From a virus, in IMG/VR virus record IMGVR_UViG_3300048839_000493, positions 1-50,770 of that record: DNA of 50,770 nucleotides; one strand, 5' to 3'. Made by a program: the position numbers and the translations under genes. Below are positions 28,578 to 50,723 of this stretch, one piece after another. Numbering within the stretch: the stretch's first letter is position 1; each line of letters begins with the position of its first letter. The notes under the pieces are model-generated. The model was given only the letters and a program-made list of their open reading frames with translations, searched no databases and was not told the DNA's origin.

Positions 28578-29129
28578 TTAACCCGGTTTACGCATAAGTC
28601 CGAAGTCACGTTTCTTGATTTTTGCCATGCGCCCGTCAGGATGGTGGAAAACGAGCCCCTCTATGTCCATGTTTGCAATCCATGCCCTTAACCCGTCGAA
28701 ATCTCTTGGGACACCATCGTATATATGGGCCTCTGCGTGTTTCTTCAGGTAGTGAATCGCAGTCCCTTCCGGATTCCCTTGAATCTTTGGTCCTACCAAT
28801 TCATATGTTCCATGCGGCAACCCTTGCCTGAGTGCCTCCAAATGATACCTGTCAGCCGGGTTGGAGGGGTCAACAGGAACCCACCCCACCCTCTTTCCTG
28901 TCACAGGGTCCGCCATTTCTTCCCTGAAGTCGGTTGGGATCTGCCCGCCAGGTTTGATTTCTCGGCGCTTGAAGTACCCATCTCCCGAGATCATACAACA
29001 TGTCCCGTCATACTTGCGGGTAGGGGCTCCCTCACAATCAAAGACCCATTGGCAAGCAGGGTTGGGTTCTCTGGTTACAAGTTTCCGGTTTTCTTCGTCC
29101 CTGATAAAAATGGTTGGAATTTTTTTCAT
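28578..29129 (-). CDS. RNA ligase, RLIG1/DUF5565-like
   Basis: A 183-residue nucleotidyltransferase-type ligase. Motif I is RKYDGT with the AMP-accepting Lys39; TYELVGPKIQGN (about 108-119) fits motif III. EGLVFHHPDGRMAKIKKRDFGL (157-178) covers motifs IV and V. The HPDGRMAKIKRRDFGL-type end is characteristic of the family that includes vertebrate RNA ligase 1 (C12orf29). It would join RNA 5'-phosphate and 3'-hydroxyl ends using ATP, possibly repairing RNAs cut by host defence nucleases. AAGGAAAA fixes the ATG at 29129; an in-frame TTG at 29153 is unlikely. Confidence 0.8.
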   Translation of the reverse strand: MKKIPTIFIRDEENRKLVTREPNPACQWVFDCEGAPTRKYDGTCCMISGDGYFKRREIKPGGQIPTDFREEMADPVTGKRVGWVPVDPSNPADRYHLEALRQGLPHGTYELVGPKIQGNPEGTAIHYLKKHAEAHIYDGVPRDFDGLRAWIANMDIEGLVFHHPDGRMAKIKKRDFGLMRKPG

Positions 29130-29162
29130 CTTTTGTTTTCCTTTTTTTGTCAAGAATCTGGG

Positions 29163-32792: not shown

Positions 32793-33256
32793 GCCACCAC
32801 CTCCGCAGTGTCCCACACGTCCGAGGCGCCGATGTGGTCGAGGATGTCCAGGGCAACCGGCTGATACCGGATACACCCCTTGCAGCCGTGTTTTTTCAAA
32901 TGGTCCTCCCTGCGAAACAGGCAGTACATGCGCCAATGACAGTCAGGATGGCTCTCAGGTAGAGGCTTCTGGTATTCTATTCCCCGCTTGCTGTTGTTGC
33001 GCTTGCGGCGGGGGTTCGACGAGTCCCATTCTACCCGAATGCGCTTTGCAACGATGGGTCTGCACTTGGAGCAGTACCGGACGTTGTGCTTGCCCTTCTT
33101 GACATCGAAGGTTATGCCGCACTCGTCGCAAGCCATGGTGTACCCTGCAATGCCCGATTGGAGCATACAAACGGGGCAAATCCTACGGGCCGAGCCGATT
33201 TCGGGGGCGGGGCCTGGATGGGAGTGGCCGCAGGTGTAGATGGTGTATTTGATCAT
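32789..33256 (-). CDS. Multi-zinc-finger hypothetical protein
   Basis: A 155-residue protein with several Cys pairs: YTCGHSH, ICPVC, ACDECG, YCSKC and CKGC, arranged as at least two zinc ribbons, with a basic middle (PRRKRNNSKRG). Probably binds nucleic acid. Start and stop are coupled to neighbours. Confidence 0.6.
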   Translation of the reverse strand: MIKYTIYTCGHSHPGPAPEIGSARRICPVCMLQSGIAGYTMACDECGITFDVKKGKHNVRYCSKCRPIVAKRIRVEWDSSNPRRKRNNSKRGIEYQKPLPESHPDCHWRMYCLFRREDHLKKHGCKGCIRYQPVALDILDHIGASDVWDTAEVVA

Positions 33257-33600
33257 TTGTCCCTCCATTCCAGCAACTCTCCCAAGTTCTCGAACACCGG
33301 GATACCAAGCTCTTTTGCCCGGGCGATCTCGGCAAGTGTCCCCTTGCTCGATTCCCAGCCGGGAACCAGAAAAACGGCATCGGATACTTCGAGCCATGCA
33401 AGGGAGTACTGGTAGAATTGATCGACGGTTAGCGTGGTATCTGGGCATTCAATGGCAAAGGACTTATCATGCCACGGGCAAAAGGGGGCCATGTCCAAGA
33501 GGAAAACATTCGCCGCTATTCGTTCTCCCCTGCCGATGTTTTGCAGGACCGTAAGGACATCAGGGCCGCTGTATGGGCCGGCGATATAGACTCGTTTCAT
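33253..33600 (-). CDS. DUF4406/nucleoside deoxyribosyltransferase-like protein
   Basis: A 115-residue protein beginning MKRVYIAGPYSGPDVLTVLQ, the start typical of DUF4406 and nucleoside 2-deoxyribosyltransferase-like folds. DAVFLVPGWESSKGTLAEI, with the SxGTxxEI segment, is also typical. It could act on nucleosides or nucleotide sugars in phage DNA metabolism. The ATG overlaps the stop of the PP-loop gene. Confidence 0.75.
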   Translation of the reverse strand: MKRVYIAGPYSGPDVLTVLQNIGRGERIAANVFLLDMAPFCPWHDKSFAIECPDTTLTVDQFYQYSLAWLEVSDAVFLVPGWESSKGTLAEIARAKELGIPVFENLGELLEWRDK

Positions 33601-34823
33601 TTTCGCATCCATTTTTCTTTTTTCCATTGTTCTTTCCTTCTTCTCATAAGCTCCAAATATTTTTGGTATGCTTCGTTTTTATGTTGAGAAAAGCCAAGTC
33701 CCTTACACCAATAATCATTTCTAAGTAAAGATTTACATACTCTTCTCCACGATGGAACGTCTCTTTTCATCTCAAGGTTTTCTTCGGCCTCATCAGGAAT
33801 TCCGTTAGGATAACCACGCTCTATCCACCACTTCTGGAATAATATTATTTTATTTTCAAAGTGCTCTTTGGTTTTTGGCGGCATAGACGATAAGAGCAGT
33901 TTAGCAAAAGATTCCCATGTATGATTACCAGGTTTAGTTATCTTGTTGTATCCATTGATATTACCGTTTTCTTGTATATATAGTGCCCCGGAGTTTGCTC
34001 CAGAAACACGGGCTACTATTTTTGCCCATGTTTCTGGTTCAATGAGATGAAAAAGCCAAAGCCCTCTGCGCTGATCATCACCGTAGGGTTGACATATACG
34101 TTGATTGCTTAATTTTACGCCAGCCATTTGCATATAGTCATAAAGTTTATTGTATTCTTTATCCCTATTTTTACCATGATATGCCCAAATATCTTGGGTC
34201 CTCCAGTCATAGATTGGATAAACATTATAAACATGATCTGTAACCTTTGTTGTCCACTGTTTTCCGTCATATGTTGTTTTTTTCGCACTTGCTATTGTTC
34301 TGAAACGATTCAAGCTCTCATCTGATCGTATCCCAACGAGACAAGCGCAATTTTCAAATTTAGCATACCACTCTCCGAACAGCGGAACAAATTCTTCAAA
34401 TTCCATATCTTTATAAAAAAAATCAAAATAAGATTCGTCATGGATAGCCTGGGTGGGCAATTCGCGTATCCAGTCTGATTTCTTATTGTCGTCCCATGGT
34501 GTCCACTTTGGTTCATAGACAGAAACTGCATTTCTAAGGGCAATTGGAAGGCAAACCCAATACAGGTCTATAATATTTTTATACTTAGCGAACATTGTGT
34601 TTGCGTGGTTTATTGTAAGTTTGTATTGTCCCTCAAGGTCAACAAGCAAGACACCAAATTTTCTATTTCTTTTTATTGCTTCATCAGCAACAAGGTGGAA
34701 CATAACAGTTGAATCTTTGCCAGCCGAAAAAGAAATATAAATTTTTTCAAACTCATCAAAGACAAAAGATATTCTCTGCCTTGCTGCGTCTAAAACATTT
34801 ATCCCTAATCCACGCTTTGACAA
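33597..34823 (-). CDS. PP-loop ATPase, IbrA/DUF3440 (PAPS-reductase-like)
   Basis: A 408-residue PP-loop adenylyltransferase. SFSAGKDSTVMFHL (residues 31-44) is the PP-loop SGGxDS-type motif; CACLVGIRSDESLNR and VYPIYDWRTQDIWAY match IbrA/phage 'phosphoadenosine phosphosulfate reductase' proteins. Such enzymes activate substrates with ATP, some for sulfur transfer. It starts at TTG 34823, with GGGAG upstream. It is AT-rich and forms a cassette with the ParB/IbrB-like gene and a small unknown gene. Substrate unknown. Confidence 0.85.
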   Translation of the reverse strand: MSKRGLGINVLDAARQRISFVFDEFEKIYISFSAGKDSTVMFHLVADEAIKRNRKFGVLLVDLEGQYKLTINHANTMFAKYKNIIDLYWVCLPIALRNAVSVYEPKWTPWDDNKKSDWIRELPTQAIHDESYFDFFYKDMEFEEFVPLFGEWYAKFENCACLVGIRSDESLNRFRTIASAKKTTYDGKQWTTKVTDHVYNVYPIYDWRTQDIWAYHGKNRDKEYNKLYDYMQMAGVKLSNQRICQPYGDDQRRGLWLFHLIEPETWAKIVARVSGANSGALYIQENGNINGYNKITKPGNHTWESFAKLLLSSMPPKTKEHFENKIILFQKWWIERGYPNGIPDEAEENLEMKRDVPSWRRVCKSLLRNDYWCKGLGFSQHKNEAYQKYLELMRRRKEQWKKEKWMRK

Positions 34824-35197
34824 TTTTCATACTCCCATTTTTCGATGGCTTTATCTGCCATTGCGTTAGCGTTTATTTGCTGTTGCTCTGTCAACCTTGA
34901 CCAAGCGAATCTGACTATATCCTCAGGGCAATTAAAGGCATAAGCGCAAGCCGCGTGACCTATCCATGCCCTTCTGTTTTGAGTAATATTTGAAAGATTG
35001 TGTTCACATGAATATTTCCAATCCTTCACAACCCTCATCATCCACTTGCCATACAATTCGTGATCAGAAGTAAACATAACCGCCATCTCTATCCAAATTC
35101 TACGTTCGTTTACTTGCCCCCACATATTATACCTTGATTCTTCCCAAAGGTGCCATGGGTGATAAATTCTTTTAATCGATCGACTCAATGTTGTCAT
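34805..35197 (-). CDS. Small protein of the PP-loop/ParB cassette
   Basis: A 130-residue protein between the ParB-like and PP-loop genes, overlapping both (26 and 19 bases). It has YHPWHLWEESRYNMW near the N-terminus and SCEHNLSNITQNRRAWIGHAACAYA in the middle, with a helical C-terminus. I recognise this pattern as a companion of phage PAPS-reductase/ParB gene pairs, without a known function. GTG 35203 and TTG further on are possible alternative starts. Confidence 0.65.
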   Translation of the reverse strand: MTTLSRSIKRIYHPWHLWEESRYNMWGQVNERRIWIEMAVMFTSDHELYGKWMMRVVKDWKYSCEHNLSNITQNRRAWIGHAACAYAFNCPEDIVRFAWSRLTEQQQINANAMADKAIEKWEYENCQSVD

Positions 35198-35825
35198 CCT
35201 CACTTGTTAAAAGTTCGGCTTCCCATGCCTCTGAAAATTCATGGTCTGCAAACATGTCGGCAAGGCCAGCTATCTGTTTAAGTCGCAAAATTTCATCTTG
35301 ATCCATTCCCAACTCAATAGCTATTTTTTTATCTGACCAATTTCTTCTTTTCAACTCAAGAACTATCTCTGACATGGAATCTACCTTGTGTTTCCCTCGC
35401 GCCCTATTGTGTCTTATCGTTGACGCAATGCGGTCGCACCTACCTTGCTGACTGTCTCTGATTGTAACAACAGGAAGATACCCATTGAGCCTTTCTACAA
35501 CGTCTTTGCACTCCTTCCCAACCCTATTTCTATGAAATCCGTCTATGACTTCGTGGTTTCCAATTTCATCGAGCATTGCAACTATTGGTTGTGTATAACC
35601 ATCAGTTATTATTGAATGCCTCAATAATTCCATTTCGGGTGGCGCAACTGCGTTTGGGTTGTAGTCATTGGCATAAACAGATTTGTTTCTAACCCACAAA
35701 ACGCAATCGACCGGCTCATTTTTAAATGGGCTTATATTGTGAAGCGCAATTTTAATTTCGTTAATTGCTTTTATCTTTTCATCAATTTGCATATGCTCTA
35801 AACGATTCAGTATTTGGTCAATCAT
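35172..35825 (-). CDS. ParB/IbrB-like protein
   Basis: A 217-residue ParB-N-like protein. EMELLRHSIITDGYTQPIVAM followed by NHEVIDGFHRNRVG (about 90-103) contains the ParB/Srx nucleotide-binding signature in altered form. DRIASTIRHNRARGKH is the second conserved box, and a C-terminal HTH-like segment follows (NWSDKKIAIELGMDQDEILRLK). ParB folds bind CTP or act as nucleases; IbrB-type members pair with IbrA. GGAGGATTTT sets the ATG. First gene of an AT-rich cassette with its own promoter. Confidence 0.85.
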   Translation of the reverse strand: MIDQILNRLEHMQIDEKIKAINEIKIALHNISPFKNEPVDCVLWVRNKSVYANDYNPNAVAPPEMELLRHSIITDGYTQPIVAMLDEIGNHEVIDGFHRNRVGKECKDVVERLNGYLPVVTIRDSQQGRCDRIASTIRHNRARGKHKVDSMSEIVLELKRRNWSDKKIAIELGMDQDEILRLKQIAGLADMFADHEFSEAWEAELLTSEDDNIESID

Positions 35826-35865
35826 AAAATCCTCCAATTGAAAATTTGATGGTTTGTAAAATACA

Positions 35866-35895
35866 GTTATAAGATATACACGTTTTTCAAGTCAA
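35866..35895 (-). promoter_or_regulatory. Promoter of the ParB/PP-loop cassette
   Basis: On the - strand, TTGACT (35895-35890), an 18-base spacer and TATAAC (35871-35866) form a sigma70-like promoter 40 bases before the ParB-like gene. The surrounding 80 bases are AT-rich and gene-free, in contrast to the GC-rich neighbours. Confidence 0.6.
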
Positions 35896-46815: not shown

Positions 46816-46848
46816 ATGAGACATATTAATAAACTACAAATTAATTTT

Positions 46849-47172
46849 GCTCGTACTTTGCTCGCCTGTTTTCAATATGTTACAATACTTTGCTCGCTGT
46901 TGCTCGTACTTTGCTCGTTAAAATATTCTAACAATATCAAATACATATATCTATTAACGAGCATTTATATATTGTTTTTGAAAAAAACATATATAGAAGG
47001 AGTAGAGAAAAAAGAACGCATATATATAGAACGCGTACGCACACACATACGCACATATAGGGCTTTTTCCTGGGAAAAATGCTCTTTGCTCGTAAACGGT
47101 ATTATTCTTAATAAAATAAGTTGTTTATGAACGAGCAAAACACGAGCAAACGAGCAAACTTAAAATGCTCGT
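46849..47172. other. Probable replication origin with GCTCG(T/C) iterons
   Basis: This AT-rich gap between helicase and primase holds 11 copies of GCTCGT or GCTCGC, usually in a TTTGCTCGT context. Forward copies are at 46849, 46860, 46892, 46902, 46913, 47088 and 47167; reverse copies (ACGAGC) are at 46957, 47131, 47142 and 47150. The centre (46920-47040) is nearly pure A/T and would melt easily. Iterons plus an AT-rich unwinding region beside a P4/D5-type helicase is a standard origin layout. A 104-codon open frame across it is probably chance. Confidence 0.72.
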
Positions 47173-49592: not shown

Positions 49593-49824
49593 ATGCACAG
49601 AGTGTCAGGCGGATTGTGTCAGGACGAAGGAGTGCGTTGACCACAACTACAAAGATTTCTCGACTCGGTCGTCGTGGGATGCGGCAAAGCTCAAGCGCAA
49701 GATGGGAAGACGCGACGGAGGGGACCGCAGGACTTTCCAGTATGCGGTTGTAATCGACCGGAGACAGGCCGACCGTAGGACCACGGACCGGAGGGGCAAG
49801 ATGAGGTGGAGGGATGCAAGGTGA
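49585..49824 (+). CDS. Hypothetical basic protein with Cys pair
   Basis: A 79-residue protein (MIKCTECQADCVRTKECVDH, then a very Arg/Asp-rich tail RRQADRRTTDRRGKMRWRDA). The Cys set (CTEC, C, C) could hold zinc. Coupled to both neighbours. Confidence 0.5.
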   Translation: MIKCTECQADCVRTKECVDHNYKDFSTRSSWDAAKLKRKMGRRDGGDRRTFQYAVVIDRRQADRRTTDRRGKMRWRDAR

Positions 49825-50723
49825 CTGTCGATGTAGAAATGTGTGAAAGATGTGGAAGACCAAAGGTAAGTGAAAAAAAGAGTTACAAAGGTCGTAAAGT
49901 TTGCGGTTATTGTATTTCTTCATTTCAAAATATCGGCAAACACACAAGAAACCTACCTGTTCCAAAGAGACTTGATGTTTTTAAATACATGAACAATGTG
50001 GTGGAAAATTGCAAAGCAAAATCAATAATTTGTTGCGATTGCGGCTTTATACTGCCGCTTGATGAATTTTATTTTCAGAGAGATAAAAAGAGAATAGATG
50101 GATTTAGGCATGTATGCAAGAAATGCAGGGGGGTTGGTTTCCAAACAGTTCATCTAAAATATAGCAAAGAAGACCACTTGATGGTAAAAAACAAGTGTAG
50201 GCATGGCCCGGTTTCTTTTTCTACTTACAGCGAAAAATTAAAATATGCAGAAAAAGTATATTGTGGAGAAAACGGTCTTTTGCTTGTTAGATGTAAATAT
50301 TGTGACAGGCGTTTTAATCCAAAAAGGTTAAGCGTTGAGTCAAGGATTAGATCACTTATGGGTCAAATACAGGGTGAAAATTCATTTTATTGTTCTGAAG
50401 GGTGCAAAAGATCATGCCCCACATTTAATACAAGAACCAAAGAAAGAACTTATAAAAAGAACTCCTCTCGAGAGGCCAACCCAGAACTTAGGAAAATTGT
50501 TTTAAAACGAGATGGCTACAAGTGCACAAAATGTGGCGCTAAATCTAAAAAAACAATACTACATTGTCATCATGTAATGCCAGCTAAATCAGATCCGATG
50601 CTGGCCAATGACCCTGACAACTGTATCACTGTTTGCAAACAATGCCATCAAAATATCCATGGCTCTGATGGATGTAAGTACAGTGATCTTAGGGGTTGTG
50701 CATCACATGATGCCTACCTATAA
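49821..50723 (+). CDS. HNH endonuclease with zinc fingers
   Basis: A 300-residue protein with several Cys-pair zinc modules (CERCG ... CGYC; CCDCGF; CKKC; CKYC) and a C-terminal HNH domain (about residues 220-290): ELRKIVLKRDGYKCTKCG, then LHCHHVMPAKSD and NCITVCKQCHQNIHG. GTG at 49821 follows GGAGGG. It is AT-rich relative to its neighbours. On the circular map it is immediately before the terminase genes, where HNH enzymes assist cos cleavage in HK97-like phages; a homing origin is also possible. Confidence 0.85.
   Translation: MTVDVEMCERCGRPKVSEKKSYKGRKVCGYCISSFQNIGKHTRNLPVPKRLDVFKYMNNVVENCKAKSIICCDCGFILPLDEFYFQRDKKRIDGFRHVCKKCRGVGFQTVHLKYSKEDHLMVKNKCRHGPVSFSTYSEKLKYAEKVYCGENGLLLVRCKYCDRRFNPKRLSVESRIRSLMGQIQGENSFYCSEGCKRSCPTFNTRTKERTYKKNSSREANPELRKIVLKRDGYKCTKCGAKSKKTILHCHHVMPAKSDPMLANDPDNCITVCKQCHQNIHGSDGCKYSDLRGCASHDAYL

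Follow-up and report, generated by a model that had tools for sequence, protein, structure and literature searches.

The window analysed here is the whole of IMG/VR virus record IMGVR_UViG_3300048839_000493 (50,770 bases), and its layout is that of a lambda-type tailed phage. The left part carries a GpA terminase, a lambda-family portal and a tape measure, and the right part carries replication genes (a RecD2-like helicase, a D5-type ATPase and a DnaG-type zinc ribbon). A minus-strand accessory block lies between the structural and replication genes (~28.2–37.4 kb) and contains a cassette of three genes in the order ibrB, X and ibrA, where X is our label for the middle gene and its protein. 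The ibrB-like ORF (35172–35837, minus strand) runs from a TTG codon, with a likely start at the ATG at 35825 behind a GGAGG, giving a protein of 217 aa. The X ORF (34805–35203, minus strand) runs from a GTG codon, with a likely start at the ATG at 35197 behind a GAGG, giving a protein of 130 aa. The ibrA-like gene (33597–34823, minus strand) starts with the TTG at 34823, and its homologues align there as MPKxxLG. IbrB and X overlap by 26 bp and X and IbrA by 19 bp, confirming the three mutually overlapping genes that an earlier note, made from the sequence alone, had described at 33597–35895. The same note had credited the cassette with its own promoter. The hexamers TTGACT-N18-TATAAC are literally present 5' of ibrB (35866–35895, minus strand; putative function), with a -10 hexamer that lacks the T at position 6. 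The cassette region contains four promoter-like sites compared with 6.2 (sd 2.6) in shuffled sequences, which is no excess. Sites of this quality are expected here by chance, so the hexamers stand but we rejected the promoter as a sign of autonomy.

The foreign, AT-rich composition claimed for the cassette is clear from its G+C content, which is 0.384 compared with 0.534 for the window and 0.50 and 0.57 for the adjoining minus-strand genes. On the 2.2 kb scale, no stretch is more AT-rich: just 0.14% of the 2241-base windows have less G+C, and the lowest point falls at the cassette itself. Two further AT-rich genes lie on the plus strand, one with an HNH endonuclease domain (49806–50723, G+C 0.37) and one without an assigned identity (46816–47130, G+C 0.30), so the cassette is not the only low-G+C island. 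The accessory block also carries an RNA ligase gene (28578–29153, minus strand; phrog_14301, E 1e-52, with a match to RLIG1), possibly a tRNA or RNA repair gene. A DUF4406/DUF7768 protein, which we take to be possibly nucleoside deoxyribosyltransferase-like, is encoded at 33253–33627 (minus strand) and overlaps the 3' end of ibrA. This gene was rejected as a partner because it did not recur with the module among 27 diverse loci.

IbrA consists of a PAPS-reductase-type PP-loop domain (PF01507 PAPS_reduct, E 4e-15) and a DUF3440 domain (PF11922, E 1.5e-34; 119.8 bits against a Pfam gathering cut-off of 25). It matches phrog_2302 (PHROGs, E 2e-87) and is closest to phage proteins labelled PAPS reductase or IbrA. 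Its relatives among PDB sequences are CysD (1zun) first, followed by FAD synthase and CysH. There is also a distant relationship to DndC, over a short stretch and with a low score (E 3e-5 in NCBIfam, 1e-7 in PADLOC). In PADLOC, IbrA matches only short DndC/BrxP segments, IbrB and X have no match at all, and the cassette fits no full model of a known anti-phage defence system. The PP-loop S[G/A]GKDS is intact, with S33, G35, K36, D37 and S38 at least 97% conserved across 173 sequences. No cysteine is invariant in these 173 sequences (C373 is the best at 94%, the others are at 41–75%), and the catalytic ECGLH motif of CysH is absent from the window's IbrA, which therefore does not classify as a PAPS reductase. 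These residues place IbrA among the PP-loop enzymes of the CysD/DndC/FAD-synthase kind; it is likely to activate a substrate with ATP and unlikely to carry out PAPS reduction, sulfur transfer or persulfide chemistry.

IbrB is a member of phrog_2159 (E 1.2e-66) and of the phage IbrB/ParB-like family, with a gene that adjoins or lies near ibrA. It carries the motif D99-G100-x-H102-R103 (DGFHR), in which D99, G100, H102 and R103 are at least 97% conserved across 176 sequences. IbrB is not a chromosome-partition ParB: DGFHR replaces the GERR CTP-binding motif, and the ParB_N score of 18.4 bits is below the cut-off of 26.3. Compared with PDB sequences, IbrB matches ParB, Noc and SbnI, all weakly (E 4e-4 to 0.06), with DGvHR aligned to the motif in SbnI and GERR in ParB. 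SbnI is a serine kinase. On this sequence comparison, the N-terminal domain of IbrB is predicted to be of the ParB/sulfiredoxin type with the DGxHR signature of SbnI, and the C-terminal part is helix-turn-helix-like (HTH_37, E 0.08). Both pair members are thus what the earlier note had taken them for, a ParB/IbrB-like protein and an IbrA-like PP-loop ATPase.

X has 130–132 residues and is predicted to be all-helical (AlphaFold pLDDT 92.8, pTM 0.86) from the window and IMG/VR sequences only. It had no match in Pfam, NCBIfam, PADLOC or PDB sequences and nothing credible in PHROGs, and its predicted fold matched no PDB structure. The conserved residues are E21, W62, N76, G82 and A116. A metal or cysteine enzyme was rejected because X has no invariant cysteine or histidine and its cysteines vary; X looks like a small, non-catalytic helical protein. 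X is nearly confined to viruses, with two matches in 84,980 genomes, a lower bound since the pattern-based scan may miss divergent X, and none was found in plasmids.

To our knowledge, IbrA/IbrB pairs have had no mechanism since 2002, and we found no paper describing a third IbrAB component, X, G6 (a second small protein introduced below) or a three-part IbrAB. The earlier note had proposed X as a third component and had suggested searching for its co-occurrence with IbrA/IbrB pairs across phages, and this check was strongly positive. The note would have counted a lack of conservation with the pair in other genomes as a refutation, and the search did not refute the proposal. An IMG/VR scan seeded with X returned 121 stretches, of which 80 were kept (E-values in the viral scans are relative to the candidate stretches, and ORFs were called mechanically, so that some starts and lengths are overextended). 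X is accompanied by ibrB in 80/80 loci and by ibrA in 77/80; the remaining three (L018, L048 and L066) are on contigs that begin just before ibrB, at the position where relatives carry ibrA. The same linkage is seen in four annotated phage loci, from phages of Mycobacterium, Pseudoalteromonas, Pseudomonas and Microcystis. Among 80 loci seeded with IbrB and chosen regardless of X, 71 have X, three have G6, two are cut at contig ends and four have neither. X is much rarer elsewhere, being found in 2/25 loci seeded with E. coli-type IbrA and in six of the 216 GenBank phage records with IbrA (210 lack a detectable X). Together these counts indicate that the presence of X predicts IbrAB but not the reverse. 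IbrAB pairs on chromosomes and in many prophages do without X, so it is not required everywhere for the core chemistry, which counts against the three-part complex considered below. The loci are not independent, and in a dereplicated set of 97 IbrA sequences below 85% identity, 68 are accompanied by X, 18 by G6 and 11 by neither. Only the IbrA, IbrB and X families recur among the 27 diverse loci. No fourth conserved partner was accepted; the next family, an SF2 helicase, is present in 5/27 loci and probably belongs to the replication block. The linkage across viral loci supports the idea of a transferable module.

IbrB and X are fused as a single ORF in 20 loci, with both domains at full length. 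The genes occur in four arrangements: IbrB-X-IbrA, X-IbrA-IbrB, IbrA-IbrB-X-tail protein, and X-tail protein-IbrA-IbrB. On a tree of the 97 IbrA representatives, gene order changes at least 17 times while linkage is kept, and the partner type (X, G6 or none) changes at least eight times, although some of the gene orders were labelled from automatically called ORFs. That the genes stay together while their order changes is good evidence that they function jointly. What we call the tail protein is the C-terminal DUF3440 module in free-standing form; it is found next to X in clade B (L011:6290–6619 and L082:5302–5607), and in L087 (1616–3064) it forms the front part of a fusion with IbrA. At its N-terminus, clade B IbrB also carries a cupin resembling ectoine synthase (PF06339, E 5e-37; L070:5085–6023 and L083:3742–4638). 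In Pseudoalteromonas phage XCL1123 the cupin and the ParB part are encoded by two adjacent genes, and the cupin is absent from the window's clade.

Loci without X often have an unrelated small protein, G6, directly before IbrA (L088:571–948, L184:5594–5992 and 24 other loci). G6 is the family of gene 6 of Chlorobiaceae phage CV-1-33 and is related to phrog_26647. A scan seeded with G6 yielded 14 loci, with IbrA and IbrB in 14/14, and X and G6 occur together in 0/209 loci. G6 is predicted to be mainly beta (pLDDT 86), its fold is unrelated to that of X, and a fold search found no match to a solved structure. The occupation of one slot by two unrelated proteins suggests a recruiting or regulating role for X and G6, rather than a shared catalytic step. 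In three further loci, from phages of Fusobacterium, Lactobacillus and Flavobacterium, ibrAB lacks X and G6 and adjoins an SNF2-type helicase and a small protein (L091:6171–7367, L092:2836–4005 and L093:2211–3410).

The neighbours of the module include DnaB, YqaJ, DnaA-C, beta clamp, SF2 helicase, RecT, primase, ThyX, dNTP diphosphohydrolase and UDG genes. One locus (L163:3015–8219) has X-IbrA-IbrB between ThyX, a dATP/dGTP diphosphohydrolase-like gene and a large UDG-family protein, which is a nucleotide-pool setting. Desulfurase, dnd or Ssp genes did not recur near the module, and neither did a signalling or nucleotide-defence gene in the 27 diverse loci.

The presence of a helical third protein with the pair, in the window and in many related phages, suggests that the pair is probably part of a three-part machine, and we consider an obligate IbrA-IbrB-X complex to be very probable. 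The docking partner of X is most probably IbrB, given that the two are fused in one lineage and that X cannot be separated genetically from the pair. In the mechanism that we propose, IbrA would use ATP to activate (adenylylate) a target, IbrB would bind this target or transfer phosphate to it, and X would recruit or position it. G6 would fill the role of X in other phages, and in clade B the free DUF3440 tail protein and the ectoine-synthase-like cupin may join the complex. The complex would act on its target early in infection, and resistance to host defences is a plausible purpose; counter-defence or DNA/RNA marking, which the earlier note had suggested, would be compatible with the data. 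The location of the module among replication, recombination and nucleotide-pool genes makes a nucleic acid (phage DNA or another) or a nucleotide the most likely target; however, many phage accessory genes typically sit among early genes, which counts against this reading, and we rate a nucleic acid or nucleotide target at slightly below even chances. The chances are about even that an IbrA-IbrB-X complex activates or phosphorylates such a target early in infection. More tentatively, and with some doubt, IbrA-IbrB could form the catalytic core of a so far undescribed enzyme by which phages modify nucleic acids or nucleotides; X, in some cases joined to IbrB, and G6 would then be its exchangeable, non-homologous target subunits.

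The only published experiment known to us on the pair points to prophage gene activation in E. coli and counts against the complex that we favour. The name IbrAB comes from the activation of prophage eib genes in E. coli ECOR-9, going by the title of Sandt et al. 2002, which attributes eib activation to genes of the IbrAB island (via PMC10763512). IbrA-IbrB, with or without X, might therefore be a transcription regulator that switches on phage or prophage genes, with X as a contact to RNA polymerase or DNA. The HTH-like C-terminal part of IbrB fits this explanation, as do the K-12 homologues ybdNM, which adjoin a LysR regulator, YbdO, and are repressed by it (PMC9068703). However, a plain activator has no need of a fully conserved ATP-binding PP-loop and DGxHR motif, no conserved neighbouring target gene was seen in the loci, and an enzyme could bring about the activation indirectly. 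We regard a regulator as unlikely. An enzyme acting on a small molecule in counter-defence or host takeover, which would modify or remove a nucleotide signal, an NAD-type cofactor or an amino acid rather than a polymer, also seems rather improbable. The nearest solved relatives (CysD, FAD synthase and SbnI) do act on small molecules, and the cupin on clade B IbrB points the same way, but the window's clade lacks the cupin and signalling or nucleotide-defence genes do not recur nearby.

Sulfur transfer, which the earlier note had suggested, or phosphorothioation would account for the distant relationship of IbrA to DndC, but it was not supported and we consider it very improbable, given that IbrA has no invariant cysteine, the cysteines of X vary, ECGLH is absent, and desulfurase and Dnd/Ssp genes do not recur beside the module. 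Only a very slight chance is left for a toxin-antitoxin pair with X as its modulator. Listeria lmo1310/lmo1309 were classed by association as a putative pair of this type in the TASmania guilt-by-association listing (PMC7020466), whereas the module has enzyme-like motifs conserved in both proteins and a third gene, and is carried by many free phages.

IbrA/IbrB-type pairs are very common, occurring in E. coli (including K-12 ybdNM), among Listeria core genes and in more than 200 GenBank phage records. Of 5426 complete E. coli genomes, 1918 match the IbrAB genes of E. coli phage PhiR5_2 at the DNA level, mostly at 80–90% identity on chromosomes, with 65 places on plasmids; the IbrA of this phage is 48% identical to the window's. 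With a dedicated third subunit, natural IbrB-X fusions and a rival protein for its slot, a loosely described pair becomes a defined, testable complex. A phage gene with a PAPS-reductase domain has been called an auxiliary metabolic gene (PMC10434257); the residue pattern of IbrA argues against this label for proteins of its type, and the corresponding "PAPS reductase" annotation is probably wrong.

Among known systems, the phosphorothioation systems Dnd, Ssp and BREX-4 share with IbrA a PP-loop (PAPS-reductase-like) enzyme such as DndC, and DndB is, like IbrB, a ParB-superfamily protein (PMC10853773). However, the cassette is not a Dnd system, as it lacks the conserved cysteine dyad and Fe-S cysteines, DndA/D/E and a restriction partner. 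CysD, FAD synthase and CysH share the PP-loop core and a P-x-x-D/N-W motif with IbrA, which differs in its DUF3440 extension and in lacking the catalytic cysteine motif of CysH and a CysN. The serine kinases SbnI and SerK (ParB/Srx) and ParB/Noc share the N-terminal ParB/Srx-type domain with IbrB, which has DGxHR in common with SbnI and lacks GERR. The phrog_26647 family (G6) takes the slot of X in other phages. The closest likeness is to the IbrA/IbrB pairs themselves (ECOR-9 IbrAB, K-12 YbdN/YbdM and Listeria lmo1310/lmo1309), which belong to the same two protein families but consist of two genes, whereas in the window a third gene lies between them, constant in the viral lineage or fused to IbrB.
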